NCBI RefSeq assembly: GCF_013185065.1
Contig: NZ_JAAVTO010000022.1
Location: forward strand, 1-39,958
DNA length: 39,958 nt
Origin: Adlercreutzia sp. ZJ473
GTDB taxonomy: Bacteria > Actinomycetota > Coriobacteriia > Coriobacteriales > Eggerthellaceae
Direction of reading: 5' to 3'
In this document: in pieces, positions 3,140-38,711 of the stretch
Layout: each line of letters begins with the position of its first letter
How positions within the stretch are numbered: the stretch's first letter is position 1
Notes under the pieces: generated by a model
What the model was told of the DNA's origin: nothing
Databases searched by the model: none
The model's input: the letters and a program-made list of their open reading frames with translations, nothing else
Made by a program: the position numbers and the translations under genes

Positions 3140-3236
3140 TGGCGGAGACGTGTGCGAATCGAACACACCCGAGACGTTCTGCGCGCCTCACAACGGCTTT
3201 GAAGGCCGCGGGAGCCACCAGGCCCCATCCGTCTCC
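3140..3236 (-). tRNA. selC: tRNA-Sec (UCA anticodon)
   Basis: Read on the minus strand, the gene begins GGAGACGG and ends CGTCTCCGCCA, giving the long acceptor stem typical of tRNA-Sec with an encoded CCA. The anticodon loop is CTTCAAA, with anticodon UCA at 3202-3200. A long variable arm (TGTGAGGCGCGCAGAACGTCTC region) and a GTTCGATTC T-loop follow. The length is 97 bases. It lies between selB and fdhD, so the full SelA/SelB/selC set is contiguous. It reads UGA in fdhA and selD of this window. Confidence 0.95.
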
Positions 3237-3406: not shown

Positions 3407-5326
3407 CTACACCAACGCGCGGAGGTCGCCTGTGCGGCGGGTCACGCCGGTGTTGTCGAACAGCTCGAGCAGGGGCATGGCGAACTTGCGAGAGATACCC
3501 ATGGCCTCCTTGAGGTCGGCGGCGGTCGACGGCCCGTGCGCGTTGATGTGAGCGACGATCGCTTCTCGGCAGCGCTCGATTGCGCAGGTGGCGTAGTAGC
3601 GGCTAGCATCGACGCGCACGATGCGTCCTTCGCGCTCGAGCGCCGTGGCGGCCTTGCGGGCGATCGTCAGGTCGATTCCCAGGTCAGAGACGATATCCTC
3701 CAGCGCAGGCGGGGTGACTCCTGCCTTGACGAGCGCCTGTTCCAAGGCGTCTGCGGCGCGCTTTTCGGCGGCGCGTGCTCCTGCGCCTGCTCGGGGGTGG
3801 CTCACCTCGCCGCCAGCATGGGCTGCGATGCCGCGTCGCACCGCCTCGTCGAGCAGCGCGCCAAAGCACCCGGCGTCGGCCGCAGGTGTCACCTGCTGGC
3901 GCAGTGCCTCCTTGGAAAGCCCCGTGGCCTGCGGGTTTGCTGTGTGGAAGTTCAGCAGCGTTTGTTCCATGCGTGCGAGTGTCTTCTGCACGAGCGCGCC
4001 AAGCGCGTACCGCGTGCCGAGCACGGCAACGCTTTCCGCTTCATGGAGGCGCGTGAGGCTTGCGCGCACCGGCACCTCGTCAAGCCCGCAGGCGCGCGCG
4101 ATCTCTTCAGCCGTTTCGGGGAGTGCGGCCAGCTTGAGGTGCGCTTTCACGGCTGCATCGACGTCGCCTTCGGCCAGCGCTTCGAGCAGCGTGTGCTCCT
4201 CGGGTGCGAGGTTGGTGCGTCTGCGTGGGTGCGGGCTTATGACCGTGCCGCCACCGATGACGTGTACGGGAGAATACGAGCGAACGACGAACTGGTCGCC
4301 GTAGGCCACAGGAAGCGGTTCCTCAAGCCTGACCTGCGCGAACGTATGTTCTCCCGAGCCGAGCGACTCGGCGTCGTCCATGAGCAGCACGCGCCCCAGA
4401 ACCTCGCGCGTGCCGTGCGCCACGTGGACGCGTGCGCCGGTCTTGAACGGGCGACCGAACGCGAATGGGTCGAGATAGGTGAACGCGGCGTCGAAACGGT
4501 CCGACGTGCTCGCCGCCTGCGGCGCGCATAGGAAGTCGCCCGGGCGCACGTCGTCGATGGAGAGCCCCGCGAGGCTTGCGGCCACGCGGTTGCCCGCCGC
4601 GGCCTGCTCGCATGCGGTGCCGTGCATCTGCACCGAGCGCACGCGGGTGGAACGACCTGAGGGCAGAATGCAAAGCGCGTCGCCTTCCGCGAGCGTGCCG
4701 CTCCACAACGTTCCCGTGACCACGGTGCCGAAGCCCTTCACGGTGAACACACGGTCGACGGGCAGACGTGCGGACCCCGTCCCCTTGGTGCGCTGCGCAT
4801 GGCGGCATGCCTCGTCGAGCGCAGCGCGCAGCTCGTCGAGCCCCTCGCCCGTGCGGCTCGATACGCCTATGACGGACGCGCTCGCAAACGGGCCGCCAGC
4901 CAGGTGCGACCTCACCTCGTCTTCCATGAACGCGCGCCACTCCTCGTCGACCAGGTCGATCTTGGTGAGCGCCACCACGGCGGTGCGCACGCCGAGGATC
5001 TCGAGCACGGCCATGTGCTCGACGGTCTGAGGCATGACGCCGTCGTCGGCGGCGACCACGAGCAGCGCCACGTCGACGCCGGTGGCGCCTGCCACCATGT
5101 GGCGCACGAACTTCTCGTGCCCGGGGACGTCAACCACGCCCATGGTGCGCCCGCTTGGAAGCTTGAGCTGGGCGAATCCCAGCTCGATGGTGATGCCGCG
5201 GCGCTTCTCCTCGGCCAGGCGGTCGGGGTCGGTGCCGGTGAGGGCGCGCACGAGCGATGACTTGCCGTGGTCGATGTGCCCGGCGGTGCCCAGGATCAGG
5301 GAAGGCGAGGGCTGCGCGGCGCTCAC
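3407..5326 (-). CDS. selB: Selenocysteine-specific elongation factor SelB
   Basis: This 639-residue GTPase delivers Sec-tRNA to the ribosome at UGA codons marked by a SECIS hairpin. The EF-Tu-like part shows the P-loop GHIDHGKS (residues 16-23), the RGITIELGF switch I segment, DVPGHE (G3) and TKID (G4). Beta-barrel domains and then a C-terminal region of winged helices follow, which in the family bind SECIS RNA. I chose the GTG at 5326 because it gives a 4-base GTGA overlap with the selA stop and places the start just before the P-loop domain. selC and fdhD lie downstream. Confidence 0.95.
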
Positions 5327-6795
5327 GAGGCGCTCCTCTCATCGTCGGCGTGCGCGAAGTAGGCTGCCAGCGCGCGCGTGATCTCGTCGACCTCGCCCTC
5401 GTTGAGGACGGTGCGTGCGTCGAACAGGAGCGCCTCCTGGTGGATGCGCGCGATGATGGGCACGGGGTTCTCCCTGACCAGGTACTCCTCGCATTCCTGC
5501 GCACTGCCGCGCGCGAAGCTCAGGCGCACGGCGTAAGTGTCGATGTCGCGCATGGGCAGCGCCCCGCCGCCTGCTCGGCTGATCTCGGGAACCACCGTCA
5601 CGTTGGCACAGCCTTCCGGCAGCACAGCGCGCATGCGGGCTGCAAGCGTCTCGGCGCGCTCGCGCACCTTTTCGGCGGACATCTCGAGCATGCGCAGCGT
5701 GGGGATCTCGGCGCGTGCCAGCTCGGGATCGAGGTAGAGGCGCAGCGTGGCTTCGAGCGCGGCGAGCGTCATCTTGTCGAGGCGCAGCGCGCGGGCGAGC
5801 GGGTTTCTCTTCAGGCGCCCGATGAGCTCGGCCGACCCGATGACGATGCCCGCTTGTGGGCCGCCGAGGAGCTTGTCGCCTGAGAACGATACGAGGTCGC
5901 ATCCCGCTGCGAGGGAGGCGCCCACGGTTGGCTCGGCATGTTCGCCGAGATTGCGCATCTCGAGCAGCGCGCCCGAGCCGAGGTCTTCGTACACTAGGAT
6001 GCCGGGCGCAGAGGCGTCGCGAGCTCGCCGCGCGGATGTGGCAGCGTCGGCAATGCGGCGCAGCTCGCGGGCGCTTACGCTTTCGGTGAAGCCGATCAAA
6101 CGGTAGTTCGACGTGTGCACCTTGAGCAGCAAGGCGGTGTCGTCGCTGATGGCGCGCTCGTAGTCGAACGCGTGCGTCTTGTTCGTGGTGCCCACCTCGC
6201 GCATACGTGCGCGGGAGAGCTCCATGATGTCGGGGATGCGGAACGACCCGCCGATCTCCACCAGCTCGCCGCGCGACACAACGGCCTCGCGCCCGGCGGC
6301 GAACTCGGAGAGCACCATCATGACGGCCGCGGCGTTGTTGTTTACGGCGATGGCCGCCTCGGCGCCGGTTAGCTCGCAGATGAGCTGCTCGCAGTGGGCG
6401 TGGCGGCTCCCACGACACATGCCCTTCGTGTCGTACTCGAGCGTGGAGTAGCCGCGTGCCACCTCGGTCACGGCCGCCACGGCGCTCTCGGCGAGCACGC
6501 TGCGCCCGAGGTTGGTGTGCACGATCACGCCCGAGGCGTTCACCACGTGGCGCAAAGACGGCATGAGCATGCGCTCGGCGAGCGTGTGCGCCTGCGCGGC
6601 CACGGCTTCGACGGCGACATCGACTTCGCGCCCTTCGCGCAGGTCAGCTCGCGCGCAGCTCACCGCCTCGCGCACCGCGCCCAGAAGCGCCGCATGGGGG
6701 AGCACGGCGCGCATGCGGTCGAGCAGCGAGCTCGCTAGGACGTCGTCGACGCTCGGAAGGCTCCGAAGCCGTTCGTTGAGGGAAGAGGTGGTCAT
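5323..6795 (-). CDS. selA: L-seryl-tRNA(Sec) selenium transferase SelA
   Basis: This 490-residue PLP enzyme converts seryl-tRNA-Sec to selenocysteyl-tRNA-Sec with selenophosphate. It shows the N-terminal LPSVD segment, [14 protein letters not shown] (about 86-99), the ENLGSG-like EDLGSG (270-275) and the PLP lysine in [14 protein letters not shown] (Lys308). I chose ATG 6795 because [10 protein letters not shown] leads straight into the conserved N-terminus and a GGAG lies upstream. The open frame extends further, but through the repeat and promoter region. The gene overlaps selB by 4 bases, so the two are probably coupled. Confidence 0.95.
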
Positions 6796-6903
6796 AAGTG
6801 CTCCGTTCGCTGCTTGATGAGTCGCCGCGCCAAGGCTCGAGGCGCAAGGGCGCGCGCCCGACCGCGCGCGGCTTCGCGCGACATCGGGCAACGTTGAGTC
6901 CTG

Positions 6904-6930
6904 AGTATACTCGTATGAGGAAGCTGTCAG
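6904..6930 (-). promoter_or_regulatory. Putative selA promoter
   Basis: On the minus strand, CTGACA (6930-6925) and TATACT (6909-6904) are separated by 15 bases, about 109 bases before the selA ATG. The -10 lies within the perfect palindrome GAGTATACTC (6903-6912). The short spacing lowers confidence. Confidence 0.35.
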
Positions 6931-6933
6931 GGG

Positions 6934-7120
6934 CCGATAACGGTATCTTTCCATCCACCGCGTGCTAAAACGTGGATGAAGCAAGGTCGTTATCGGTGGT
7001 TCGAGCCCCAAGAACCGTCGACAACGAGCCATTTGCATCCGCTTTCGTCGAGAAATCGCCGATATCGGGGTATTTGCATCCAGAATTCCCCCAAGGTGGA
7101 TGAGAAAGCGCCGTTTTCCA
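6934..7120 (+). repeat. Two-hairpin extragenic repeat, copy 2 (with extra 5' hairpin)
   Basis: Positions 6989-7120 align without gaps to 129-260. This copy also has an upstream arm: CCGATAACG (6934-6942) and CATCCAC (6952-6958) pair with GTGGATG (6972-6978) and CGTTATCGG (6988-6996). Its 3' end runs directly into the truncated toxin gene. Confidence 0.8.
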
Positions 7121-7437
7121 CGGTTTCATCGTTTGAGTTTGACGAATCGCGCCTGCCTGATCTGAACGTTCTGCACTTCGAGGACGCCACAGTGGATTGG
7201 CTGAAATTCGTCGGCGATAATAGGTTCGGACGCGTCAAATCTGATGATTGGGATATTGCGATAGGCCCCGTGGCGAACGATGCCACCATGCCGGTCCTGA
7301 GCCTCTTCTTCGCCGAGGTGTACACAGAAGAAGAGACGATACGCCGCTTGCTGCCGCAAAAACTCAAAGACCAGTATGCGTTCAAAACCCAAAGGGCAAT
7401 TGATTTGCTTCGGTTCCATGAGGTGGTGAAGGCGTAA
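6976..7437 (+). pseudogene. N-terminally truncated DUF3990-type toxin fused to repeat sequence
   Basis: From about 7130 the frame (SFEFDESRLPDLNVL ... DDWDIAIGPVAND ... LLPQKLKDQYAFKT) is clearly related to residues 60-159 of the protein at 723-1202. The N-terminal half carrying YHGS and FGxGFYT is absent. In its place the open frame reads back through the palindromic repeat to an ATG at 6976, with no ribosome-binding site. I infer a deletion joining the repeat to the middle of the gene. If translated, it should lack ADP-ribosyltransferase activity. Its stop overlaps the next ATG (TAATG). Confidence 0.7.
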
Positions 7438-7688
7438 TGGGCATTCGATCGCACATTAACAGCTACTATGACAACGCGGTGGTGGGGCGAATCGTCGAAA
7501 AGTACGGCATTGCGCCCATGGAGGCCCTGGAATCATATCTGCACTCCGAGACATACCGAATGTACCTTGACCCTGAGCTCGAGATGCTAGAGTTCTCCCC
7601 TGCGGGGATTTTCGATATGTGGGAAAGCGAGCAGATCACGGGCGATCCACGCAACTCCCTTTACATAAGGAGGGATGAGTGTGCCTAG
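7437..7688 (+). CDS. Small partner protein of the truncated DUF3990 cassette
   Basis: This 83-residue paralogue of the protein at 1199-1444 shares SET, GIFDMW and EQITGDPRNSLYIR. It begins at the ATG overlapping the stop of the truncated toxin by one base and overlaps the next gene. The frame is intact although its presumed toxin partner is broken. It could therefore persist as a stand-alone antitoxin against related toxins. The family is not recognised with certainty. Confidence 0.55.
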   Translation: MGIRSHINSYYDNAVVGRIVEKYGIAPMEALESYLHSETYRMYLDPELEMLEFSPAGIFDMWESEQITGDPRNSLYIRRDECA

Positions 7689-7890
7689 GGAAATGGAGTT
7701 CTTCATCTTCCTCCTTGAGAAATACGCGGAGGAGAAGGGCGTAACCGCGACGAACGCATTCGACCAGTGGGACGCTCACGGCATTACGCAGGAGATATAC
7801 GACAACTACGAGATGTACCACAGCGAGCGCATCGAGAACGCCTTCGAGGACATCGACAGCCTGCTGGCGACGGGAAGGCACGCGTGGTAG
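7681..7890 (+). CDS. DUF3791-like small protein, copy 2
   Basis: This protein of about 69 residues is nearly identical to the C-terminal half of the product of 1446-1664. I prefer GTG 7681 because AAGGAGG (7667-7673) lies seven bases before it. The ATG at 7675 would be only one base from that site. It overlaps the end of the preceding gene. The N-terminal part (EMEFFIFLLEKYAEE) is diverged from copy 1, but from 7767 the DNA is the same to within one base over 122. Confidence 0.6.
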   Translation: MPREMEFFIFLLEKYAEEKGVTATNAFDQWDAHGITQEIYDNYEMYHSERIENAFEDIDSLLATGRHAW

Positions 7891-8489: not shown

Positions 8490-9653
8490 GTGGATTTGTT
8501 CACTCAGAAGAAGGGACTCGCGCTCGCGGGCCTCGTCGTCGGCGTGGGGCTGGCGATCCTGGCGTTTCTCGGCAACCCGCCGAACATGGCGATGTGCGCG
8601 GCCTGCTTCATTCGCGACATGGCCGGCTCGCTCAAGCTGCACACCGCCGCTCCCGTGCAGTATTTCCGCCCTGAAATCGTGGGCCTGGTGGTGGGTTCGT
8701 TCTTGATCGCGGTGGCCACGCGTGAGTACCGCTCGACGGCGGGGTCGTCGCCCATGACGCGCTTCGTGCTCGGATTCATCATGATGATCGGCGCGCTCGT
8801 GTTTTTGGGCTGCCCGCTGCGCATGGTCATCCGCATGGCGGCAGGCGACCTGAACGCGTGGGTGGGCCTCATCGGCTTCGTACTCGGCGTGGGCACCGGC
8901 GCGCTCTTCCTGAAGCGTGGCTTCTCGCTCGGGCGCGAGTACGACACCAACAAGGCGGCCGGCGCGGTGCTGCCCATCTTGCTCATCGCGGGTCTCGTGA
9001 TCAGCATCGCCACGGCCGCGTTCGTCGTGAGCGAGACGGGCCCCGGCTCCAAGCACGCGCCGTGGCTCGCAGCTCTCGTCGTGGCGCTCGTGGTGGGCGC
9101 GTTGGCGCAGAAGGCGCGCATCTGCTTCGCAAGCGGCCTGCGCAACGCGTTCCTCGTGCGCGACTTCGAGATGCTTCTGCCCATCGCGGGCATGTTCGTG
9201 GTCATGGTGATCTACAACCTGGCCACGGGCAGCTTTAAGCTGAGCTTTGACGGCCAGCCCATCGCGCACTCCCAGCACCTGTGGAACATCCTTGGCCTGT
9301 ACGCCGTGGGCCTCGGCGCGGTGCTTGCCGGCGGCTGCCCGCTGCGTCAGATGATCCTGGCCGGCCAGGGATCGTGCGACGGTGCCGTCACCTTCCTCGG
9401 CATGCTGGTGGGCGCTGCATTCGCTCACAACTTCGGCCTGGCGGGCGCGGCTGCGGCGGCGGCCACGGCTGAGACCGCCGCGGTGGCGGGCGGCCCGGCC
9501 TTCGCCGGCCAGGTGGTGCTCGTGTGCGGCATCGTCGTGCTGCTCGTGATCGGCGCGGCCAACGTGCGCAGGCAGAAGGCCGCCGCGTCGGCGCCTGCTG
9601 CGACGAAAGTCCCGGCGCTCGACGCCGACGAGGCCGCCCCGGCGGCCAACTAG
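8490..9653 (+). CDS. yedE: YedE-family putative selenium transporter
   Basis: This polytopic membrane protein of 387 residues is rich in Gly-Ala helices, with about ten predicted membrane segments. Family-typical cysteine-containing turns include GCPLRMV, CFASGLRNAFL and GGCPLRQM. YedE/YeeE proteins carry sulfur species such as thiosulfate, and the subgroup next to yedF and selD is annotated as selenium-related. The GTG at 8490 (VDLFTQKKGLAL) has AAGGAA four bases upstream and begins immediately before the first helix. An upstream start at 8226 would add about 88 low-complexity residues. The C-terminus is an Ala-rich tail. It heads the selenium cluster. Confidence 0.8.
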   Translation: MDLFTQKKGLALAGLVVGVGLAILAFLGNPPNMAMCAACFIRDMAGSLKLHTAAPVQYFRPEIVGLVVGSFLIAVATREYRSTAGSSPMTRFVLGFIMMIGALVFLGCPLRMVIRMAAGDLNAWVGLIGFVLGVGTGALFLKRGFSLGREYDTNKAAGAVLPILLIAGLVISIATAAFVVSETGPGSKHAPWLAALVVALVVGALAQKARICFASGLRNAFLVRDFEMLLPIAGMFVVMVIYNLATGSFKLSFDGQPIAHSQHLWNILGLYAVGLGAVLAGGCPLRQMILAGQGSCDGAVTFLGMLVGAAFAHNFGLAGAAAAAATAETAAVAGGPAFAGQVVLVCGIVVLLVIGAANVRRQKAAASAPAATKVPALDADEAAPAAN

Positions 9654-9761
9654 TCCCCGGCGGTCAACGAGCCCCTGGTGGCAGGTGAGCTCTCGGCGGC
9701 AAGCGTGCGCGAGACACGCGAAATGAAACTTGGGCGCATGCGCCCGCGAGAAAGGAATATC

Positions 9762-9968
9762 ATGATCGAAGTAGATGCCCGCGGGCTTTCTTGCCCCGAG
9801 CCCATGCTGATGGCCACTGACGCCGTGCGCTCCTCGAATGGCGAGGAGGTGCGCGTGCTCGTGAGCTCGGCCACGGCGCGTGACAACGTGAGGAACGTGG
9901 CGCGGAAGGCCAAACGCGAGGCCGTGGTCGAGGAGCTCGGCGCCGACTTCGCGATCACCATCAGGTAG
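9762..9968 (+). CDS. TusA/SirA-family sulfur or selenium carrier
   Basis: This 68-residue protein has the CPEP motif (DARGLSCPEPMLMA) at the N-terminus, as in TusA-type persulfide carriers. The cysteine accepts sulfur, or here plausibly selenium, as a persulfide/selenide from a desulfurase. The start is ATG 9762 with AAAGG upstream. An upstream in-frame ATG at 9678 would add an unrelated N-terminus. It sits between the YedE transporter and DUF3343, which supports a trafficking role. Partner specificity is inferred from context. Confidence 0.8.
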   Translation: MIEVDARGLSCPEPMLMATDAVRSSNGEEVRVLVSSATARDNVRNVARKAKREAVVEELGADFAITIR

Positions 9969-9995
9969 CGAGGGCGAGAGACGGAGGGTAGCGGA

Positions 9996-10256
9996 ATGGG
10001 GAAGGCGATGCCGCATGTCGTAGCGACGTTCTACACGACCACGGCCGCGCTCGCCATGCAGCGAGCGGGCGCGCGGCACGGTCTGCGCGGGCGGCTTGCT
10101 CCCATTCCGCGCCAGCTCTCCGCAGGCTGCGGCTTCGCGTGGCGCGAACCGGCAGCAGGCGGCGAGGAGGCTGTGGCTGCGGCTGCCGACGCCGTGCGCA
10201 CCGCTCTCGAGGTCGAGGGGATCGAGGCTGAGGGCGTGGTACTGCTCGACCTGTGA
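9996..10256 (+). CDS. DUF3343 protein (putative Se/S carrier)
   Basis: This 86-residue protein has the DUF3343 pattern: an N-terminal FYTTTAAL segment, a central LAPIPRQLSAGCGFAW with one conserved cysteine, and a C-terminal helix-strand. DUF3343 members neighbour selenium genes and are proposed, not proven, Se/S carriers. A second member of the same family lies at 13597-13857. Both keep the SAGCG motif. It ends just before the desulfurase gene. Confidence 0.75.
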   Translation: MGKAMPHVVATFYTTTAALAMQRAGARHGLRGRLAPIPRQLSAGCGFAWREPAAGGEEAVAAAADAVRTALEVEGIEAEGVVLLDL

Positions 10257-10272
10257 GACGAGGATGACGACG

Positions 10273-11424
10273 ATGATCTACTTTGACAACGCGGCGACCA
10301 CCTTGCAGAAGCCGCCTGAGGTGGCTCGCGCGGTGGCAGCGGCGCTCTCGTCGTTCGGCGGCGTGGGGCGAGGCGTGCACCCGGCCTCCCTAGCTGCGGG
10401 GCTTGCCGTGTATGAGGCGCGCGATGCGGTGGCGCAGCTGCTCGGCGCGCCGAGCGCTTCCCGCGTGGCGTTCGCTGCGAACGCCACGGAGGCCCTGAAC
10501 ATCGCCATCCGCGGGCTTCTGCCAAGAGACGGCGTTGCGGTGACTACGGCGGCGTCGCATAACTCGGTGCTGCGCCCGCTGTTCGCCGCGCGCGACGAGT
10601 GCGGCTGCGAGGTACGCGTGGCGCCGCATGACGCGCGCGGGGCGCTCGACTACGCCGCGCTCGAGCGCTTGGCGCGCGGCGCTGACCTGGTGGTACTCAC
10701 ACACGCCTCGAACCTCACGGGCGACGTGTACGACGCCTCGCGCGTCGCGCGCATCGCGCACGAGGCCGGCGCGCACGTGGTTCTCGATGCGGCGCAGACT
10801 GCCGGCGCCCTCCCCGTTGACATGGCGGCGCTCGGCGTGGACGTCCTGTGCTTCACGGGCCACAAGAGCTTGATGGGGCCGCAGGGCACGGGCGGCCTGT
10901 GCGTGGCCGCGGATACGGATGTGCCGCCGCTTCTGGAGGGCGGCTCGGGTACGCACAGCTTCGACGAGCGCCACCCGCGCTTCATGCCTGAGTCCCTTGA
11001 GGCGGGAACGCTCAATGCGCACGGCCTGGCGGGCTTGGCGGCGGGCGTGGCGTACCTGCAGGCGCGCGGCGTGGCTGACGTGGCCGCGCACGAGGCGCGC
11101 CTCGTCCAGCGCCTGCGCGCGGGCCTTGCGCGCATGCCGGGCGTGCGCGTGCTCGGCGGCGGGGAGTCCGCGGGGCATTGCGGCATCGTGGCGCTCAACG
11201 TGGGCGAGGCCGACTCGGCCCTCGTGGCTGACCGCTTGGCAGCCGAGTGGGGCATCTGTACGCGCGCGGGTGCCCACTGCGCGCCGCTCATGCACCGCGC
11301 GCTCGGCACCGAGTCCCAGGGCGCCGTCCGCGTGAGCTTCGGCGCCTTCAACACGGAGGACGAAGTGGACGAGTGCCTGGAGGTTCTGGAGGTGATCGCG
11401 CATGACGTATCGTGTGGGCGTTGA
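10273..11424 (+). CDS. Class V aminotransferase / cysteine desulfurase family protein
   Basis: This PLP enzyme of about 383 residues begins IYFDNAATT. It contains the HNSVLRPL segment, DAAQTAG, the PLP lysine in FTGHKSLMGPQG and a catalytic-cysteine loop CTRAGAHCAPLMH near the C-terminus. It resembles the desulfurase family linked to selenium and thiolation genes rather than housekeeping IscS. The likely role is release of sulfur or selenium from Cys/Sec and loading onto the Cys carriers beside it. I prefer ATG 10273 because a GAGACGAGG lies about ten bases upstream. ATG 10264 is nearly as possible. It overlaps the activase gene by 23 bases. Confidence 0.8.
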   Translation: MIYFDNAATTLQKPPEVARAVAAALSSFGGVGRGVHPASLAAGLAVYEARDAVAQLLGAPSASRVAFAANATEALNIAIRGLLPRDGVAVTTAASHNSVLRPLFAARDECGCEVRVAPHDARGALDYAALERLARGADLVVLTHASNLTGDVYDASRVARIAHEAGAHVVLDAAQTAGALPVDMAALGVDVLCFTGHKSLMGPQGTGGLCVAADTDVPPLLEGGSGTHSFDERHPRFMPESLEAGTLNAHGLAGLAAGVAYLQARGVADVAAHEARLVQRLRAGLARMPGVRVLGGGESAGHCGIVALNVGEADSALVADRLAAEWGICTRAGAHCAPLMHRALGTESQGAVRVSFGAFNTEDEVDECLEVLEVIAHDVSCGR

Positions 11425-12166
11425 TATCGGTTCGACAGCGGCGAAGGTGGTGGTGCTCGACGGAGACGAGCTGGTGTTTACCCTGCTTGAGCCGACGGGC
11501 TACAGCAGCGTAGACGCCGCCGAGCGCATCGAGGCGGCGCTCGTACAGGCGGGCTTTCCGCTTGAGGAGTGCGATGTGGTGGCCACGGGTTACGGGCGCG
11601 TGTCGGTTCCCTACGCGCGCAAGGCGGTCACCGAGATCACCTGCCACGGACGTGGCGCGGCGTTTCTATTCGGACCCGATGGCGTGGTAGTAGACATTGG
11701 CGGGCAAGACACGAAGGCTATCGTGCTCGAGCGCGGACGTGTGGCGAAGTTCAACATGAATGACAAGTGCTCGGCGGGAACAGGCAAGTTCCTCGAGATT
11801 ATGGCAAACCGCATGGGCGTCACTCAGGTGCAGCTCGAACAGCTGGCGCGTCGCGGTCATCCGACGCAGATTTCGTCTATGTGCACGGTGTTTGCGGAGA
11901 GCGAGGTTATCTCGCTTATCGGCGCGGGCACCCCGCGCGAGGACATCGCCTGGGGCGTCATCGAGTCGGTGGCGGCGAAAGTGCGCCCGCTTGTGCCGAG
12001 TGTCGCAGGCGCGCGTCATTTTCTCACGGGCGGTCTGTGCGAGAACGACTATCTGGTGGAGCGCCTGTCGGCTCAGCTCGATGCCAAAGTGGAAACCTGC
12101 CCGCAAGCTCGGTTCGCCGGTGCTATTGGCGCGGCCTTGTCGGTTCCGCTTGCAAGTGCGGAATAA
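11402..12166 (+). CDS. 2-hydroxyacyl-CoA dehydratase-type activase (ATP-driven Fe-S reductase)
   Basis: This 254-residue ASKHA-fold ATPase has GVDIGSTAAKVVV (phosphate 1), VDIGGQDTKA (phosphate 2) and the two cysteines that hold the dimer-bridging [4Fe-4S] cluster, Cys123 in NDKCSAGTG and Cys161 in SSMCTVF. Such activases fire low-potential electrons into a partner Fe-S enzyme at the cost of ATP. Its start lies inside the desulfurase gene behind a near-perfect GGAGGTGAT (11388-11396), so expression is coupled. The partner is probably the product of 12312-13466. Base composition looks less GC-rich than its upstream neighbour. Confidence 0.85.
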   Translation: MTYRVGVDIGSTAAKVVVLDGDELVFTLLEPTGYSSVDAAERIEAALVQAGFPLEECDVVATGYGRVSVPYARKAVTEITCHGRGAAFLFGPDGVVVDIGGQDTKAIVLERGRVAKFNMNDKCSAGTGKFLEIMANRMGVTQVQLEQLARRGHPTQISSMCTVFAESEVISLIGAGTPREDIAWGVIESVAAKVRPLVPSVAGARHFLTGGLCENDYLVERLSAQLDAKVETCPQARFAGAIGAALSVPLASAE

Positions 12167-12294
12167 GCGCGGTGCTCTAAGGGGCACGTGCTGACTTCGG
12201 TGTGCTGTTTACGGTTCGGCCAACTTCATCTGCGGCCCACATCAGCTATGACCAGCGTATACAACTAACACACTTCGTCTTATTGGTGGAGCTT

Positions 12295-12315
12295 ATGAGA
12301 AAGAAGAAATCATGA
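12295..12315 (+). CDS. Possible six-codon leader peptide before the dehydratase-family gene
   Basis: ATG 12295, preceded by GGTGGAG, opens a frame encoding MRKKKS. Its TGA overlaps the ATG of the next gene (ATGA). The main gene has only a weak site of its own (AGAAAGAAG), so coupling is plausible. There is no further evidence for translation. Confidence 0.25.
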
Positions 12316-13466
12316 CAACACAAGACTTACCTGCCATTTTTGAGGAGTTCGATGAGTCGCGGCGCGCGGGGTTCATCAACGCAATGAACTTCAAGGAAAC
12401 TGGCGGTCGCCTGGTGGGGTATCTGTGCAGCTACACGCCGCTCGAGGTCATTGAGGCAGCGGGTGCCTCCGGTGTGGCACTGTGCGGCATGAGTAACGAA
12501 CCAGTTGCCGAGGCCGAGACGGTGCTGCCTAAGAATCTCTGCCCGCTCATCAAGAGCACCTATGGGTTCGCGCATGCTGACAAGTGCCCCTACACCTATT
12601 TCGCCGACGTCATTGTGGGTGAGACCACTTGTGATGGTAAGAAGAAGATGTACGAGCTGCTCTCCGACATCAAAGACACGTACGTGTTGCAGCTGCCGCA
12701 GGGTCAGGGACGTGCATGGGCTCAGGATGCGTGGCGTGAGGAGGTGCGTCTGCTTAAGGAGGAACTCGAGCGTCGCTACGACATCACGGTAACTGATGAT
12801 GATCTGCGTTCAGCTGCCGAGGTACGCAATCGCTTCCGCCGCGCCATGGTCGAACTCTACGAGCTGCAGGCCAACGTGCCGCCGGCCATGAGCGGTGTGG
12901 AAATGATGACCACGGCGCTGCAGAGCACATTCAGCTTTGATATCAATGAGAGCATCGAGCGCGTGGAGTCGCTGTTCGAGAAGCGTCGGAATGCCTACGA
13001 GGCAGGGGAGCGTCCTATATCAGTTGACGCGAAGCGCATTCTTATCACGGGATGCCCCTCAAGCGGCGTCATCCAGAAGGTGGGCATGGCTGTCGAGCGT
13101 AACGGCGGCGTTATCGTGTGTCTGGATGACTGTTCGGGCGAGCGCACACAAGCCATGATGATTGACCCGCAAGCAGACGACATCCTTGGTGCCATTGCCG
13201 AGCGCTACCTGGCCATCCACTGCTCGGTTATGACGCCGAACTCCGAGCGCATGGACAACACGGCCGCCATGTGTGAGAAGTATCATGTCGACGGCGTGAT
13301 CGACCTCACGCTTACCGCGTGCCATACCTTTGCCGTGGAGTCCGAGCTCATGAGCCGCAAGATGGAAGAGATCGGCGTGCCCTATCTGCAGATCGAGACT
13401 GACTACGCAACGGCCGACCAAGGGCAGATCGACACGCGTATAGCGGCCTTTATCGAAATGCTGTAG
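12312..13466 (+). CDS. Double-cubane-type 2-hydroxyacyl-CoA dehydratase family protein
   Basis: This 384-residue protein has the family segment [13 protein letters not shown] (Cys107), preceded by LCSYTP (Cys39), CGMSNEP (Cys58), CPLIKSTYG (Cys77) and KCPYTYF (Cys92). It has later cysteines in [19 protein letters not shown] and LTACHTF. The single-chain form next to an activase fits double-cubane cluster proteins (DCCP with its ATP-dependent reductase), which reduce small molecules, rather than a two-subunit acyl-CoA dehydratase. No CoA-pathway gene is nearby. Its place between a desulfurase and YedF suggests a selenium or sulfur reduction step. The substrate is unknown. Confidence 0.75.
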
Positions 13467-13596
13467 GCTGGTGCGAAACAGCATCGGCGCGAGGGGCGCG
13501 CGGGCTGGCGCTGAGTCGAGGCTTACGACCAAGGCATGCGGCTGCGGCGCGTCAGCCTCGAGTTAGCACAAGGAATCGAAAGGGAAGAAGGTTCTC

Positions 13597-13857
13597 GTGT
13601 CAACGTACGTGATCGCATTCGAGTCGACCCATGCGGCCATGGCGGCCTCGAAGACGCTCGCCTCGGGCAGCGTGGACTTCCAGACCATTCCCGTGCCCAC
13701 CGCGATCAGCGCGGGCTGCGGCATCGCCGTGAGGTTCGACGCGCCTGACCCCGAGGAGGTGCTCGCGCGCATCTTCGGCGCGAAGCGCGACACGGGCCTG
13801 GCCTCCCTCTACCGCGCCACCGGTGACAAGACCTACGAGCGCGTCTGCGCCCTGTAG
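13597..13857 (+). CDS. DUF3343 protein, second copy (putative Se/S carrier)
   Basis: This 86-residue protein starts at GTG 13597 with GGGAAGAAGG upstream. It shares VPTAISAGCGIAV, the conserved-cysteine region, with the DUF3343 product of 9996-10256, but is otherwise diverged. Two family members in one cluster suggest carriers for different donors or acceptors, perhaps one per side of the double-cubane step. It lies 55 bases upstream of yedF. Confidence 0.75.
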   Translation: MSTYVIAFESTHAAMAASKTLASGSVDFQTIPVPTAISAGCGIAVRFDAPDPEEVLARIFGAKRDTGLASLYRATGDKTYERVCAL

Positions 13858-13912
13858 CCAAGGAGGCGGCGGGCCCATCGCCCGCGCGCCGCGAAGGAAA
13901 GGAAGCTCTACC

Positions 13913-14536
13913 ATGACCAAGATCCTCGACGGATTCGGCAAACCCTGCCCCATGCCGCTCGTGATGGCGAAGAAGGAGATCGACGCGGGCTGCCATGACC
14001 TGGCCGTCCAAGTTGACAATGAGACGGCGGTGAAGAACCTCACGCGCCTGGGGAAGAAGACCGGCCTTGCGGTGGCGTGCGACGTCATCGAGGGCGGCTG
14101 GCTCATGACGTTCTCCGAGGGCGACGGCACCACTCCCGCCGAGCCTGATCTGGCCGCGGCCATCTCCGCGGGCCCGGCCTGCTCTGCGGGCGGCGGCTGC
14201 GGATATGCGGTGTTCGTGGGGAAAGACCACGTGGGCGAAGGCGACGGCGAGCTCGGCTACAACCTCATGAAGATGGCGCTCTACACGCTTTCCGAGAGCG
14301 ATGAGGTGCCGGCGAGCCTGCTGTTCATGAACTCCGGCGTGAAGCTCGTGGCGGGTGACGAGCAGCAGATCGTCGACAGCGTGCACGCGCTCGAGGAGAA
14401 GGGCACCGAGGTGCTCGTGTGCGGCACCTGCCTGGACTTCTACGGCGTGAAGGAGAGCCTGAAGGCTGGCGAGGTATCCAATATGTACGACATCCTGGGA
14501 CGCATGCAGGAGGCGGCGAAGGTCATCACGCTGTAG
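13913..14536 (+). CDS. yedF: Selenium metabolism protein YedF
   Basis: This 207-residue protein has an N-terminal TusA-like domain with the CPMP motif (GKPCPMPLVMA) and a C-terminal DsrE-like domain (residues ~95-207: FVGKDHVGEGD ... LLFMNSGVKL ... EVLVCGTCLDFYGV). This two-domain form is the YedF family, which co-occurs with SelD and is implicated in selenium trafficking. ATG 13913 is preceded by GAAGGAAAGGAAG. Upstream in-frame starts would add unrelated sequence. A strong hairpin follows the stop. The conserved cysteines are present. Confidence 0.85.
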   Translation: MTKILDGFGKPCPMPLVMAKKEIDAGCHDLAVQVDNETAVKNLTRLGKKTGLAVACDVIEGGWLMTFSEGDGTTPAEPDLAAAISAGPACSAGGGCGYAVFVGKDHVGEGDGELGYNLMKMALYTLSESDEVPASLLFMNSGVKLVAGDEQQIVDSVHALEEKGTEVLVCGTCLDFYGVKESLKAGEVSNMYDILGRMQEAAKVITL

Positions 14537-15388: not shown

Positions 15389-16465
15389 CTAGTCCGAGAA
15401 CGTGATCTTGCAGGCGGAGTCCTCCACCACGCGCCCGATTCTCCAAGGGGCCCGCCCGCTCTCGCGCGCGAACGTCGCCTCGAACGCCGCGGCGCGCTCA
15501 GGCGGCACGGCCGCCAGGATCCCGCCTGAGGTCTGCGGATCGCAGATCACCGCCATGCGGTTGTCGAACTCGTCATCGCCAAGCTCGCCTTGGACGACGA
15601 ACGGCGCGGCGTAGTCCATGATCGAGAACGTGCGGTTCGGGCGGCAGTACGCGCACGACAGCTCCCACGCGCGCTCGAACAGGGGCAGCGCGTCCCAGTC
15701 GAGCACGGCGCCGACGTGGCTCGCCTCGAGCATCTCGTGCAGGTGCCCGGCCAGGCCGAACCCTGTCACATCGGTGGCCGCGTGTGCGCCCGCTTCGAGC
15801 ATGGCCGTGCCGCCAGCGCGGTTGAGCTCCTTCATCGACGCGATGACCGGCGCGAACGTCGCGGCGTCCACCTCGCCGATCTTGTACGCGGCGCTCACGA
15901 GCCCCACGCCGAGCGGCTTGGTGAGGAAGAGCACGTCGCCGGCGCGCGCACCCTCGTTGCGCATGATGAGTTCGGGGTGCACGGTGCCGAACACGCACAG
16001 GCCGTACTTCGGCTCGGGGTCGTCCACCGAGTGCCCGCCCACGATGAGCGCGCCTGCCTCGGCCACGGCGTCGGCGCCGCCCGCGAGCACCTCGCGCGCC
16101 ACGGCGTTGCCGAGCGCGCAGTCGAGCGCGAGCACGTTCAGGGCGCACACGGGGGTCGCCCCCATGGCGAACACGTCGGAGAGCGCGTTGGCCGCGGCGA
16201 TGCGCCCGAAGTCGTACGGGTCGTCCACCAGGGGCGTGAGGAAGTCCACCGTGAGCACGGCGGCCACTTCGTCGCTCAGGCGGAACACCGCTGCGTCGTC
16301 GCTCGTCTCGAAGCCGAGCAGCAGGTTGCGTGCGAAGGGCGAGCTATCGTTCGCGCCGCTCAAAATGGGTGCGAGTATGTCGGCGAGGTCGCCCGGACCC
16401 CACTTCGCCGCTCAACCGCCCTTCGACGTTAGCTCGGTGAGGCGAACGCGCTCCTTCTCGCTCAT
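15389..16465 (-). CDS. selD: Selenide, water dikinase SelD (selenocysteine-containing)
   Basis: This 358-residue enzyme makes selenophosphate from selenide and ATP. The frame beginning after an internal TGA lacks the catalytic N-terminus. Reading upstream from ATG 16465 (ribosome site GGAGGG) gives an N-terminus with LTELTSKGG-Sec-AAKWGPGDLADIL, where the TGA at 16414-16412 is codon 18 and sits exactly at the catalytic Cys/Sec position of SelD. Downstream motifs include ANALSDVFAMGA, VGGHSV, TDVTGFGLAGH and CDPQTSGG. SelD is thus itself a selenoprotein, fed back by its own product. The gene is divergent from the fdh operon. Confidence 0.93.
16382..16414 (-). promoter_or_regulatory. Sec UGA and candidate bacterial SECIS in selD
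   Basis: The UGA (16414-16412) is followed by a foldable stretch. GGCGA (16409-16405) pairs with TCGCC (16386-16382). GGTC (16399-16396) pairs with GACC (16390-16387) around the loop CGGGC, with a one-sided AGTGG bulge. The form and distance fit SelB-bound SECIS elements. Confidence 0.7.
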
Positions 16466-16718: not shown

Positions 16719-19700
16719 ATGCAACTGACACGCAGAGGCTTCTTCAAGAGCATCGGCGCCGCGTTCGCTGCGACGGCAGCCTTCGAGGTCGTGGCAGCGT
16801 CCCCGGCTCTGGCTGTTGAGACGTCCAAAGAGTGGAAGCTCGTGAACACCGAGGAGTACACGAACATCTGCTGCTACTGCGCAGGCGGATGCGGATCGTT
16901 GTGCTCAGTGCGCGACGGCGAGCTCATCAACCTTGAGGGCGACCCCGACCACCCCATCAACAAGGGTGGCCTGTGCCCGAAGGGCGCCTCGATGTTCCAG
17001 CTGCGCAACATCGTGGACCCGCAGACGCGCGAGGTCATCAAGAATCCCGAGCGCGTGACCAAGCCCATGGTGCGCCGTCCCGGTGCCAAGGACTGGGAGC
17101 CCATCACATGGGAGGACGCGATCAAGGAGATCGCACGCAAGGTGAAGGATACGCGTGACGCCACCTTCATCGAGAACGAGGGCGGCATGACCGTCAACTG
17201 GACCCCCGGCATCGCAAGCTTGGGCGGTTCGCAGGAGAATTCCGAGGAAGAGTACCTCATCTTGAAGATGATGCGCTCGCTTGGTGTCGTTGCGATCGAC
17301 AACCAAGCCCGTGTTTGACACGGCCCCACTGTCGCCGGTCTGGCGGCATCATTTGGTCGCGGCTCCATGACGAGCCATTGGTGCGACTTCCAAAACACCG
17401 ACGTGATCCTGCATTGCGGGTCCAACTCCGTCGAAAACCACCCCGTGAGCTCCAAGTGGCTGAACAAGGCGCATGAGCGCGGGGCGAAGTGGATCGTGGT
17501 CGATCCGCGCTACACCCGTACTGCCGAGATGGCCGACATCTACTGCCCCATTCGCTCGGGCACGGACATCGCGTTCTACGGCGGCATGTACCACTACATC
17601 ATCGAAAACCTGATCGAGCCGAACCTGGCCGATTACCTGGCGGGCAAGGAAGTTCCCGTCTATAACTTCGAGTATCTGCTCAACTACACCAACGCGAGCT
17701 ACCTGCTCGATCCCGAGTACTCCTTCGACGTCGAGTCGGGCCTGTTCTCAGGCTACGACGAGGCGACCAGGACCTACTCCAACCACTCCTGGCACTACCA
17801 GACCGAGTCTGAGGAGCAGTGGGATACCGCGGGCGACTACGCCTGGGCGGTCAAGCCGGGCGTGCCCGAGTTCACCACCCCCACGCTGCAGCACCCGAAG
17901 CGCGATATGACGCTGCAGGACCCGATGTGCGTGTACCAGCAGTTCAAGAAGCACTACTCCCGCTACGACATCGAGACCGTGTGCAACGTCTGCGGCATGG
18001 ACCGCCAGACGCTCGAGCTCGTCTACGAGACGTACTCAGCCTCCGCGGCGCCGGGCAAGGCCGGCATGATCCTGTACGCCCTCGGCCAGACGCAGCACAC
18101 CTACGGCGCCCAGAACACGCGTGCCATGTCGGTCATGCAGCTGCTCTTGGGCAACATCGGCGTGCCTGGCGGCGGCGTGAACGCGCTGCGCGGCGAGCCG
18201 AACGTCCAGGGCGCCACTGACATGGGCATGATGGTGAACGAGCACCCTGCGTACCTCAAATGGGCCAACACCACCGATCGCTCGTCTCTGCGCAAGTGGC
18301 TTGAGTCCCAGACGTATTCGGACGGCTACTACACCAACAAGCCCAAGTTCATCGTGTCGTCGCTTAAGGAGTGGTTCGGCGAGAACGCCACCGTGGAGAA
18401 CGACTACGGCTACGACTGGTGGCCGAAGGTCCCCTCCAAGAAGACCGACCAAGACTACACGCACATCTCAACGTTCGAGCTCATGAGCCAGGGCGTCATC
18501 AAGGGCTACTTCAACTGGGGCATGAACCCCTGCCACTCAGCCCCGAACGCGTCCAACGTGCGCCGCGCCATGGCCAACCTCGACTGGCTCGTGGTGGCTG
18601 ACCAGGTGGCTACCGAATCCGCCACCTTCTGGAAGGCGCCTGACATGAGCCCCGAGGAGATCAACACCACGGTGTACTTCTTGCCGTGCGCGCTCATCTA
18701 CGAGAAGCCGGGCGTCATCCTGAACTCCGGCCGCTGGCTGCAGTATCGCTACCAGGCCGTCGAGCCGTGGGACGAGGCCAAGCCCGACTACGAGATGTGC
18801 GATTTGCTGTGGACCGAGATTTGCAGGCTCTACGAGGCGGAGGGTGGCGCGAACCCCGATCCGATTCTCAAGACCAAGTGGGACTACTACATCGACGGCA
18901 AGATCGATCCGCGCCCCGTGGCGTGGGCCCTCAACGGCTACCGCGTGGCGAACTCCGACTTCGCCGACGAGAAGGTCGATCTGCTCTCCGGCTACTCCGA
19001 GATGGCCGCTGACGGCTCCACGGCGTGCGCCATGTGGATCTACTCTGGCTTCTGGAACAACAACGACGCTCCGCTCGACCCGGCCGCCCAGCCCATCGGA
19101 CGTCGCGACAACGATGACAAGTCGGGCCTCGGCCTGTACTCGAACTGGGCGTTCAGCTGGCCCTCGAATCGCCGCATCCTGTATAACCGCAACTCGGCTG
19201 ACATGAGCGGCAAGCCGTGGGCTGCCGACAAGAAGCTCGTCGAGTGGACGGGGGAGAAGTGGGACCTGGTCGACCAGGCCGACTTCGTGGCTGCCAAGAA
19301 TGGTGCGCCCGTACCGCCCAATAACAAGACGTTCTTCATGCTCTGGGAGCAGAACGGCCGTCTGGAGAGCTACGGCATGGAGGACGGCCCCGTCCCCGAG
19401 TTCTACGAGCCCTTCGAGAGCCCGGTCGAGAAGAACCTGCTCAACGGTGCGCTCTCCTCGCCGTGCATGCGCTTCGCCGAGTACGAGTCCACCAAGCACG
19501 GCGACGCTGCAGACTACCCGATTGTGGCCACCACCTACTCGGTGACCGAGCATTGGCAGACCGGCGGCCAGTCGCGCGCCTGCCCCGCGCTCGTGGAGGC
19601 CATGCCCGCCCAGTTCGTCGAGATCTCCGAGGAGCTGGCGGCTGAGAAGAGCATCAAGCCAGGTGACAAGGTGCGCGTGTTCAACAACCGCGGCTCGGTC

Positions 19701-19925
19701 GTGGTTGACGCGGTGATCACCAAGCGCCTGAAGCCGATGCGCGTCCACGGCGTGACCCAGCATCTGGTGGGCCTCACGCACCACTACAGCTGGGCCGGCG
19801 TGTTCGGCACCGAGGCTTCCACCGTGAACGACCTCACCCCGAACGTGGGCGATCCCAACTCGTTCACGCCGGAGTACAAGGCGTTCCTCGTTGACATCGA
19901 GAGGGCGATAGGGGGTGCGAAGTAA
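16719..19925 (+). CDS. fdhA: Formate dehydrogenase catalytic subunit, selenocysteine-containing (Fdn/Fdo type)
   Basis: This subunit of about 1068 residues oxidises formate at a bis-MGD molybdenum or tungsten site on the outer face of the membrane. The N-terminus has a Tat signal (TRRGFFKS, residues 4-11) and the [4Fe-4S] motif CCYCAGGCGSLC, then LCPKG. The TGA at 17316-17318 is codon 200, in NQARV-Sec-HGPTVAGLA, the family's selenocysteine site. Reading on gives the full molybdopterin domains to 19925. The DNA after the TGA closely resembles the E. coli fdhF/fdnG SECIS. The stop overlaps the fdhB start by one base. The length agrees with FdnG. Confidence 0.96.
17316..17355 (+). promoter_or_regulatory. 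Sec UGA and SECIS hairpin in fdhA
   Basis: After TGACACGGCCCC, the stem CGCC (17333-17336) pairs with GGCG (17342-17345) around the loop GGTCT (17337-17341). The GGUCU loop and its distance from the UGA match the E. coli formate dehydrogenase SECIS. Confidence 0.85.
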
Positions 19926-28128: not shown

Positions 28129-28170
28129 ACTTTAGGCATAAAGAAATGGTCATTATTGGGAGGAGAGGTT

Positions 28171-30621: not shown

Positions 30622-30629
30622 GTGAGATC

Positions 30630-31247
30630 ATGACGAAGCTTGGCATTGCGATCAATCAAAGCCGTTGCGTCGGCTGCAACACCTGCTCTGTCTCGTGCAA
30701 GATGCAGAACAGAATCCCGTCGGGAATGCTCTGGAACAGGGTGCTGACCAACAATTCCGAGGTGGCGGACAGCGCCGAAGGCGAGTACCCCGATCTGCGC
30801 AGGACCTATACGCCGCTGGCCTGCCAGCACTGCGAGAACCCGGCCTGCCAGAGGGTGTGCCCGACTGGCGCCACCTACAAGGACGACAAGGGCCGCGTGG
30901 AGATCGACTACGACAAGTGCATCGGCTGCCGCATGTGCATGGCGGCCTGCCCCTACAACGCCCGCGTGTTCAACTGGGCCGAGCCCGTGCGCGACCCTGA
31001 CTTCGCCTATGGCGACAAGGACGTTCCCCTGCGCCCCAAGGGAGTCGCGGAGAAGTGCACGCTTTGCAAGGAGCGCACGGACAGGGACGAGGAGCCCATG
31101 TGCGTGAAGTGCTGTCCGGTGGGGGCCCGCGTGTACGGAGACCTGGATGACCCGAACTCCGAGATCTCGAAGATAGCAAGGCTCGGCACTGCGAAGGTGC
31201 TGGAAGAGCACTTCGGAACCAAGCCGCAAGTGCGCTACTACAAATAG
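30630..31247 (+). CDS. Four-cluster ferredoxin subunit of molybdoenzyme A
   Basis: This 205-residue electron-transfer subunit has four cysteine sets: CVGCNTCSVSCKM (residues 13-25), CQHCENPACQRVCP, CIGCRMCMAACPY and CTLC ... MCVKCCPVGA. It fits four [4Fe-4S] clusters as in NrfC/TtrB/PhsB proteins. It has no signal peptide and would be exported with the Tat-borne catalytic subunit. It lies 8 bases after gene A. DNA at 30867-30985 is identical to 38319-38437 in operon B. Confidence 0.9.
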   Translation: MTKLGIAINQSRCVGCNTCSVSCKMQNRIPSGMLWNRVLTNNSEVADSAEGEYPDLRRTYTPLACQHCENPACQRVCPTGATYKDDKGRVEIDYDKCIGCRMCMAACPYNARVFNWAEPVRDPDFAYGDKDVPLRPKGVAEKCTLCKERTDRDEEPMCVKCCPVGARVYGDLDDPNSEISKIARLGTAKVLEEHFGTKPQVRYYK

Positions 31248-31268
31248 GGAAGGTAAGGAGATAGCAAG

Positions 31269-32504: not shown

Positions 32505-32517
32505 TTCCCCTCTCTTG

Positions 32518-32564
32518 CGGATGGGGAATCCCTCTCTCCCTCCCTTTGCGGATTCCCCAATCCG
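32518..32564. repeat. Inverted repeat after operon A
   Basis: CGGATGGGGAATCC (32518-32531) pairs with GGATTCCCCAATCCG (32550-32564), with one bulged base, around an 18-base pyrimidine-rich loop. It may be a terminator or processing site between the anchor gene and the MFS gene. Confidence 0.5.
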
Positions 32565-32692
32565 TGCGGATTTCAGCTCCCTAGGGCATTGCGTGCAGGG
32601 CGAAGGCAAGATGACGTGGCCTGTCTGCCTGAGCCCTGCATGCGTGTCGCGGAGCCTTTTGTTTTCTCGTTCGGCTACTTGCAAGGATCAAC

Positions 32693-33922: not shown

Positions 33923-33994
33923 GGCGCCCCGTAACCTGAGTTTGCCTGGTCTGGCATGGCGGAGATGCCGGGGGATTGCCGGGAGCTCCCGCGT

Positions 33995-34083
33995 CCAGCG
34001 GGCGACAACTGCCCAGTTGGCAAAGCCGTCCAGCGGGTGACAGCCGCCCAGCGGGCGTCAGCCGCCCGGCGGCTCAGTCGCCG
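33995..34083. repeat. Imperfect 18-bp tandem repeats
   Basis: CCAGCGGGYGNCARCYGC-like units occur at 33995-34012, 34030-34047 and 34048-34065, with a degenerate unit after. They fill the gap between the convergent MFS and regulator genes and run into the end of the regulator. They contain short GC stems. Confidence 0.5.
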
Positions 34084-35540: not shown

Positions 35541-35553
35541 CTTGAACCTCACT

Positions 35554-35602
35554 CTGCCCGCATTTACATTACGCAATCTGTCCGTTTTTGAGCGGGCAGA
35601 TT
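35554..35602. promoter_or_regulatory. Composite operator candidate between mocR and molybdoenzyme operon B
   Basis: CTGCCCGC (35554-35561) and CTGTCCGT (35578-35585) repeat with a 24-base period. CGGGCAG (35593-35599) stands inverted 8 bases after CTGTCCG, inside a larger AATCTGTCCG / CGGGCAGATT palindrome (35576-35602). Spacing equals that of the operon A site. Confidence 0.6.
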
Positions 35603-35649
35603 CATTTTACCCTGCTCGTTGGGTGAATGACGAGAAGAGGAGGGATTTC

Positions 35650-38073: not shown

Positions 38074-38081
38074 GTGAAGAG

Positions 38082-38699: not shown

Positions 38700-38711
38700 G
38701 GGGTGTCAACC

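Follow-up and report, generated by a model that had tools for sequence, protein, structure and literature searches.

Activases of the 2-hydroxyacyl-coenzyme A (CoA) dehydratase superfamily use ATP hydrolysis to drive electron transfer. In theory, potentials of about −1 V can be reached, and the double cubane of BzdN is held by Cys36, Cys73, Cys100, Cys263, Cys293 and Cys327 (PMC11971306). The physiological relevance of the reactions of double-cubane cluster proteins (DCCPs) was called unclear in 2025 (PMC11971306). The present analysis concerns a predicted DCCP and its activase, encoded within a group of selenium genes in Adlercreutzia sp. ZJ473 (contig NZ_JAAVTO010000022.1, positions 1 to 39,958; this whole stretch of 39.96 kb is referred to as the window). 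A first-pass annotation, made from the sequence alone, had proposed that the pair reduces a selenium or sulfur species to selenide for SelD. It was found that DCCP genes occur essentially only alongside selD, a near-strict association that is the pattern of a selenium-metabolism gene class, and the DCCP-activase pair very probably serves selenium metabolism.

The dehydratase-like protein of the window exceeded the cut-off of NF040772 (‘double-cubane-cluster-containing anaerobic reductase’) with 476.2 bits against 350. Alignment to BzdN showed that the six double-cubane ligands are kept as Cys39, Cys77, Cys107, Cys274, Cys304 and Cys337, so the first-pass description of a single-chain HGD-D-family protein with DCCP-like cysteines was borne out. 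The six ligands were invariant among 16 DCCPs, and Cys58 and Cys92 likewise. The match to the Carboxydothermus hydrogenoformans DCCP (6ENO) extended over the full length (E 2e-75). An AlphaFold model (predicted local distance difference test, pLDDT, 87) gave 6ENO and 7YZM/7YYL as the best structural matches and superposed on 6ENO with TM 0.90 and a root-mean-square deviation of 1.9 Å over 367 columns. In all features that a sequence can reveal the protein is a double-cubane protein. The adjoining gene encodes a cognate ATPase activase with cluster cysteines; it matched the DCCP reductase (DCCP-R, 7yyl_E) at 4e-39 and TIGR00241 with 235 bits (cut-off 125). Its Cys123 and Cys161, positions which the earlier annotation had named correctly on sequence, align with the MNDKC and SSTC motifs of the cluster region of 1HUX, the activator of 2-hydroxyglutaryl-CoA dehydratase.

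Members of two DCCP sub-clades, about 36% identical, often have neighbouring genes (here and below L numbers denote the loci compared: L032 at 5630 and 9986, L033-L035, L037, L065, L074, L094, L100 and L106). Locus L032, the 88% identical relative of the window, encodes another DCCP, of the canonical type, and one more DUF3343 protein, both of which are missing from the window. The paired sub-clades could possibly form a heterodimer, as in BzdNO and HadBC, or serve two substrates.

The association with selD was examined in several genome samples, which overlap and whose counts were not summed. Among 291 genomes of Clostridia, selD was present in all 32 with a DCCP and in 34 of the 259 without one (Fisher p 1.5e-24). 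Clostridia encoding only HGD-D paralogues that score below the DCCP cut-off served as the control: selD was found in 14 of 53 (26%), near the 23% baseline, and the difference from 32/32 was clear (p 2e-12). In Coriobacteriia (119 genomes) the corresponding figures were 45/48 for DCCP-positive and 49/71 for DCCP-negative genomes, and the three DCCP-positive genomes without selD are 82-86% complete. The same relation held inside a single 12-genome genus of this class (g16; selD in 8/8 with and 0/4 without DCCP) and in the family of the window itself (7/7 versus 3/9). Among the 14 named controls, E. coli and M. jannaschii alone encode a DCCP, and they were also the sole two genomes with selD above the cut-off. 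Enterobacterales agreed (2/2), although this number carries no statistical power. Scanning public genomes for related loci yielded 80, and 77 of their 79 source genomes contained selD; SelD-like matches of approximately 220-240 bits in L091, L100, L106 and L131 represent SelD-like paralogues and were left out of the counts. The first-pass annotation had proposed looking for co-occurrence of the pair with selenium genes, and the outcome was positive with the paralogue control at baseline. It had also held that homologues living mostly without selenium genes, or beside dehydratase partners, would speak against its idea: the former is contradicted by 32/32 Clostridia, 45/48 Coriobacteriia, 2/2 Enterobacterales and 77/79 source genomes, and a second dehydratase subunit is not the usual partner of the homologues.

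The genes surrounding the pair were identified by NCBIfam and Pfam scans, in which the family libraries covered 8.2-16.4 kb; the remaining open reading frames (ORFs) were read as translations. The eight genes from yedE to yedF lie on the plus strand in the order given below, and all genes named in the earlier annotation were found on this single strand in the claimed order. The annotated features are:

3140..3236, minus strand: tRNA-Sec (selenocysteine, Sec), found by ARAGORN and Rfam RF01852 (71.5 bits)
3407..5326, minus strand: selB, Sec elongation factor (ORF; as a seed it matches homologues in Sec loci)
5323..7038, minus strand: ORF which as a seed matches homologues in Sec loci
8490..9653, plus strand: yedE, putative selenium transporter (TIGR04112, 451 bits, cut-off 200)
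9762..9968, plus strand: TusA-like small protein with a CPEP motif (PF01206, 46.5 bits; start from the ORF)
9996..10256, plus strand: DUF3343 copy 1, Se/S carrier-like, with a single Cys45 in SAGCG (PF11823, 55.5 bits)
10264..11424, plus strand: class-V cysteine desulfurase, Sec-lyase-like (TIGR01977, 373.9 bits; start inferred from the ORF)
11402..12166, plus strand: activase, putative DCCP reductase, with Cys123 and Cys161 (TIGR00241)
12312..13466, plus strand: predicted double-cubane cluster protein, DCCP (NF040772)
13597..13857, plus strand: DUF3343 copy 2, with Cys41 in SAGCG (PF11823, 62.4 bits; AlphaFold pLDDT 90)
13913..14536, plus strand: yedF, TusA and DsrE domains (TIGR03527, 168.5 bits, above the cut-off of 110)
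15389..16465, minus strand: selD (TIGR00476, 351.6 bits, one TGA inside)
16719..19925, plus strand: fdhA, formate dehydrogenase-like, a selenium consumer (two collinear ORFs)

The yedE start at 8490 is plausible, with a Shine-Dalgarno-like AGAAGG 5' of the GTG. There is a 23-bp overlap between the desulfurase and activase genes, and the other gaps in the run mostly measure about 7 to 145 bp; a shared transcript is therefore predicted as likely. The run is preceded by fdhD, tRNA-Sec, selB and selA and followed by a TetR regulator gene, selD and fdhA. In-frame TGA codons occur in selD at approximately 16412-16414, within GGUAAK, and in fdhA at 17316-17318; both products are probably selenoproteins, judging from these codons, and the cluster would therefore hold its own selenium consumers. 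In the rest of the window the reading showed genes for formate dehydrogenase, molybdopterin oxidoreductase and regulators. Among the translated ORFs over 39.96 kb none was seen to encode a CoA-ester enzyme (those outside 8.2-16.4 kb being read without a family-library scan), and to this extent the earlier statement that no CoA-substrate gene is nearby holds.

Several other features of the window were observed. Two consecutive respiratory operons of the molybdopterin oxidoreductase/FeS/NrfD type occupy 28156-39911. Two alike sets of small ORFs, at 723-1780 and 6976-7890, lie on either side of the fdhD-selB-selA block; the proteins common to both look by eye like DUF3990/DUF3791-type pairs and possibly represent a toxin-antitoxin system or mobile element. 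A short ORF at about 1838-2050, apparently truncated, looks by eye like the N-terminal region of a protein of the epoxyqueuosine reductase type.

The 80 related loci were searched with hidden Markov models built from the window genes. In the loci of Coriobacteriia the desulfurase, DUF3343, YedF and SelD were nearly always found together, and whole or partial combinations appeared again in Clostridia (L041, L054, L059, L061, L089, L090, L092, L103); partial ones were seen in Fusobacteriales (L064), Dehalococcoidales (L065) and Brachyspira (L078). The recurrence of the gene arrangement in both Coriobacteriia and Clostridia shows that it is not due to chance. The 80 loci had been chosen by similarity to the window protein, and an unselected set was therefore added: 44 DCCP loci of Clostridia and, for comparison, 20 HGD-D paralogue loci from selD-positive genomes, each with at most about 9.4 kb on either side. 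A DUF3343 gene was found near 25 of the 44 DCCPs and near none of the 20 paralogues (p 4e-6); in 22 of these 25 loci it lies on the same strand less than 500 bp from the DCCP gene. The window-type desulfurase was found at 11/44 and 0/20 loci, respectively. Strict selenium markers, defined as SelD, SelA, SelB, YedF, YedE, Se-LysR, YqeB, YqeC and the SAO protein, were found near 12/44 DCCPs and 1/20 paralogues, which is borderline when taken alone (p 0.05). When a strict marker, DUF3343, the desulfurase or an MtaA-type methyltransferase was accepted, the figures became 34/44 and 1/20. In a FastTree tree the selenium-linked contexts were spread over both large DCCP clades and many sub-clades.

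Further repeated contexts were the LysR_Sec_metab regulator (NF040786), the SAO operon (SaoB, SaoC, SaoE, SaoL, SaoX) and corrinoid methyltransferase clusters. DCCP genes in or next to SAO operons were seen at L077, L083, L093, L142 and L155, and this link may help to interpret SAO. NF040772 is numbered near the models for SAO, SclA and LysR_Sec, and this suggests a common curation effort.

The proteins encoded around the pair were compared with known families. The desulfurase fell just short of the TIGR01977 cut-off of 377 bits and missed that of the selenocysteine lyase SclA (NF040779) with 294 bits against 525. PF11823 (DUF3343) carries the Pfam name ‘Putative Se/S carrier’, and its Cys-Gly was invariant among 38 linked carriers, which on sequence fits a hand-over of persulfide or selenopersulfide. 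A fold search with DUF3343 returned weak PII/ACT-like matches alone (best E 0.014). A C-terminal NP(N/H)RDxYC tail, recalling the swinging arm of DsrC, is frequent in DUF3343 proteins of canonical-DCCP loci (L033:11155-11421, L039:2888-3148, L094:8875-9132, L137:9023-9280, L144, L146, L149, L152); carriers of the window type have no such tail.

The point in selenium metabolism at which the pair might act was indicated by genomes that lack selA. Of the DCCP-positive Clostridia 27/32 encode selA and five do not. Three SelD-positive SelA-negative Clostridia (L112-L114) have the order YqeC-YqeB-YedF-SelD-DCCP-activase-MocA-like, with three extra genes between YqeB and YedF in L114; a fourth selA-less genome (L117) combines the pair with the desulfurase, YedF, DUF3343, YqeB and YqeC. 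The NCBIfam names in L112 are ‘selenium cofactor biosynthesis protein’ for YqeC and ‘selenium-dependent molybdenum cofactor biosynthesis protein’ for YqeB, and the gene after the activase has MocA as its nearest model, with a score below the cut-off. YqeC and YqeB belong to the context of the selenium-dependent molybdenum hydroxylase system (Haft and Self 2008, PMC2276186), and selenium in clusters of the L112 type goes to the cofactor, not to selenocysteine. Since it stands beside selD in genomes without selA, the pair tracks selD, not Sec insertion, and its placement upstream ‘for SelD’ in the first-pass annotation gains support. Most simply, the arrangement suggests that the pair acts no later than selenophosphate formation. 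A role solely in Sec insertion downstream of SelD is disfavoured by the five selA-less genomes, three of which have the DCCP gene beside selD.

The minimal module of DCCP, activase and DUF3343 was also recognized in E. coli K-12 MG1655 as yjiM-yjiL-ytiA, a tight three-gene unit (4563668-4565850; L177:1669-3851). A matching place, with at least 80% of the query covered, was present in 5321/5426 complete E. coli genomes. YjiM keeps the six ligand cysteines as well as Cys58 and Cys92, and YtiA matched the Se/S carrier family with 48.9 bits. In one published YgfI data set yjiM was among the most reduced genes, together with hyc genes (PMC9068703), which hints at anaerobic expression, but no more.

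A Sec lyase or desulfurase leaves selenium or sulfur in zero-valent form on a cysteine, whereas the substrate of SelD is selenide, so that a reduction has to come in between. A pair whose genes lie with those for a desulfurase, two one-cysteine carriers, YedF and SelD would be an obvious candidate for the reductant. In the proposed mechanism the activase, probably supplied with electrons by ferredoxin or flavodoxin, would hydrolyse ATP and drive the electrons onto the double-cubane cluster of the DCCP. The DCCP would then convert selenium at the Se(0) level, whether elemental or carried as a selenopersulfide by the desulfurase/Sec lyase, DUF3343 or YedF, into selenide for use by SelD; DUF3343, the most regular partner, is the likely hand-over carrier. 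Production of selenide for SelD from carrier-bound or elemental selenium is the best single reading of the data, although we regard it as evenly balanced between right and wrong. The broader proposal, that DCCP and its ATPase form a widespread ATP-powered selenium reductase delivering selenide from such Se(0) forms in anaerobes and E. coli alike, is more tentative still and falls somewhat short of that balance.

Several observations weigh against this assignment. Selenite is reduced by low-molecular-weight thiols with no ATP involved, which leaves it unproven that a very low potential is needed. DCCP is absent from 34 of the 66 selD-positive Clostridia and is therefore dispensable for selenium use; two metagenome-assembled genomes among the 79 sources have a DCCP with no selD found, and 10/44 DCCPs of the unselected set have no recognisable selenium gene within about 9 kb. 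The co-occurrence counts carry no formal phylogenetic correction, and co-occurrence cannot name a substrate. No supporting biochemistry or genetics was found in the literature search.

The strongest rival explanation likewise gives the pair a selenium-supply role. The DCCP would reductively break C-Se bonds in methylselenol, selenoethers or imported organoselenium and in this way free selenide. The idea is modelled on the nitrogenase-like MarHDK, which breaks C-S bonds; in the passages found of a preprint on mlp clusters, MarHDK-like genes belong to the non-selenium versions of clusters like the methyltransferase/corrinoid and SAO ones described next (PMC10418091), and DCCP could be their counterpart. 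In vitro, DCCP acts as a reductase of small unsaturated molecules (PMC11971306). DCCP genes were also found in methyltransferase/corrinoid clusters (L062, L063, L095, L121, L145), and at the five SAO loci listed above they accompany a MerB-like SaoL and sulfonate-type ABC importers. In the window and most Coriobacteriia, however, the neighbours are a desulfurase/Sec lyase and cysteine carriers, not methyltransferase or SAO genes, and the commonest partner, the one-cysteine DUF3343, better fits a protein-borne persulfide or selenopersulfide. Organoselenium cleavage is considered unlikely, but it is a serious rival which the data do not separate from the reduction of Se(0).

It is less probable again that the pair acts not on selenium but on another protein of the selenium pathway, activating or repairing Sec-containing SelD, YedF disulfides or selenium-regulated factors. 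Activase-type ATPases are generally known to activate partner enzymes, and the pair adjoins SelD, which is often a selenoprotein. Against such redox maintenance, the DCCP has a complete six-cysteine cluster site of its own, it stands beside a Cys-type SelD with no Sec at all in L112-L114, and in several lineages it is found away from SelD with DUF3343 alone.

A general low-potential reductase, acting in detoxification or on nitrogenous or unsaturated small molecules and merely sharing anaerobic hosts with the selenium genes, is disfavoured and ranks as quite improbable. The known DCCP activities are indeed the reduction of acetylene, hydrazine and azide (PMC11971306), a DCCP is CO-repressed in Calderihabitans (PMC7306483), and some DCCPs have no selenium neighbours. 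The HGD-D paralogues are equally anaerobic, though, and show no selD enrichment (14/53 versus 32/32), and this control led us to reject a general anaerobic correlation as the main explanation; moreover, the correlation with selD holds inside one genus, and both large clades of the tree show repeated clustering with selenium genes. A conventional 2-hydroxyacyl-CoA dehydratase with its activase, present here by accident, would match the Pfam HGD-D and activase families but can be dismissed, since the window protein is a single chain with six cluster cysteines encoded by the only HGD-D gene, no CoA genes were seen in the ORF reading, DCCPs separate from HGD-D paralogues, the dehydratases included, in the FastTree tree, and the cut-offs of HadC (95.6 versus 700 bits) and BzdN (97.3 versus 453.8) and of the remaining dehydratase or reductase subunit models were missed by far while that of NF040772 was exceeded.

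Production of selenide from Se(0) by the DCCP, if true, would be the first physiological function of a DCCP and would supply the missing reductive step before selenophosphate, for the synthesis of Sec and of selenium cofactors alike. Published models of how free selenide is supplied to SelD without toxicity name carriers (YedF, DUF3343) and no low-potential reductant. The tie to selenium gives the DCCP family its first testable physiological role; as the near-strict, family-wide relation with selD is common to Sec users and selenium-cofactor users, it joins the questions of DCCP function and of selenide supply, both of which can be tested.

The closest described system is the DCCP and DCCP reductase of C. 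hydrogenoformans (6ENO, 7YYL, 7YZM), which shares with the window full-length homology at 36-37% identity, the six cysteines and an activase gene. That protein is a canonical DCCP, whereas the window protein belongs to the second sub-clade (about 36% identical) and is encoded amid selenium genes and carriers. BzdN/BzdO of class I benzoyl-CoA reductase and HadBC of 2-hydroxyisocaproyl-CoA dehydratase have the same fold, superfamily and type of ATPase activator, and BzdN also the six-cysteine double cubane, but unlike the window DCCP these enzymes consist of two unlike subunits and act on CoA esters. The E. coli YjiM is a 45% identical DCCP with all key cysteines kept, accompanied by an activase and DUF3343 as in the window; it differs in not being encoded beside selD or yedF. 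The NADH oxidoreductase fused to SelD (COG1252) has likewise been proposed to reduce a selenium compound for SelD (PMC2432076). It is unrelated to DCCP, involves neither ATP nor a double cubane, and its SelD fusions occur in cyanobacteria and several others.

The same set of genes as in the window (YedE, SirA-like, DUF3343, Sec lyase, activase, dehydratase subunit, YedF and SelD) appears in Slackia heliotrinireducens, Shel_25110-25470, according to the passages found of Lin et al. 2015, in Table 1 of which an activase and a 2-hydroxyglutaryl-CoA dehydratase subunit are given as STRING partners of the Slackia YedE/YedF/LysR/DUF3343 (PMC5322559). Those passages do not comment on the activase and dehydratase or name the double-cubane family. 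The 2023 mlp-cluster preprint, in the part found, describes a dicubane protein as ‘provisionally linked’ to selenium (PMC10418091). The step had been called undescribed in the first-pass annotation; this stands for the reaction, which neither text assigns in the passages found, but not for the association, which is already partly in print in both. To these systems the present analysis adds that the locus is assigned to the double-cubane family, that DCCP depends almost strictly on selD as judged against a paralogue control, that the pair forms a module with DUF3343, that such a module exists in E. coli, and that the pair is found in selenium-cofactor clusters free of Sec.

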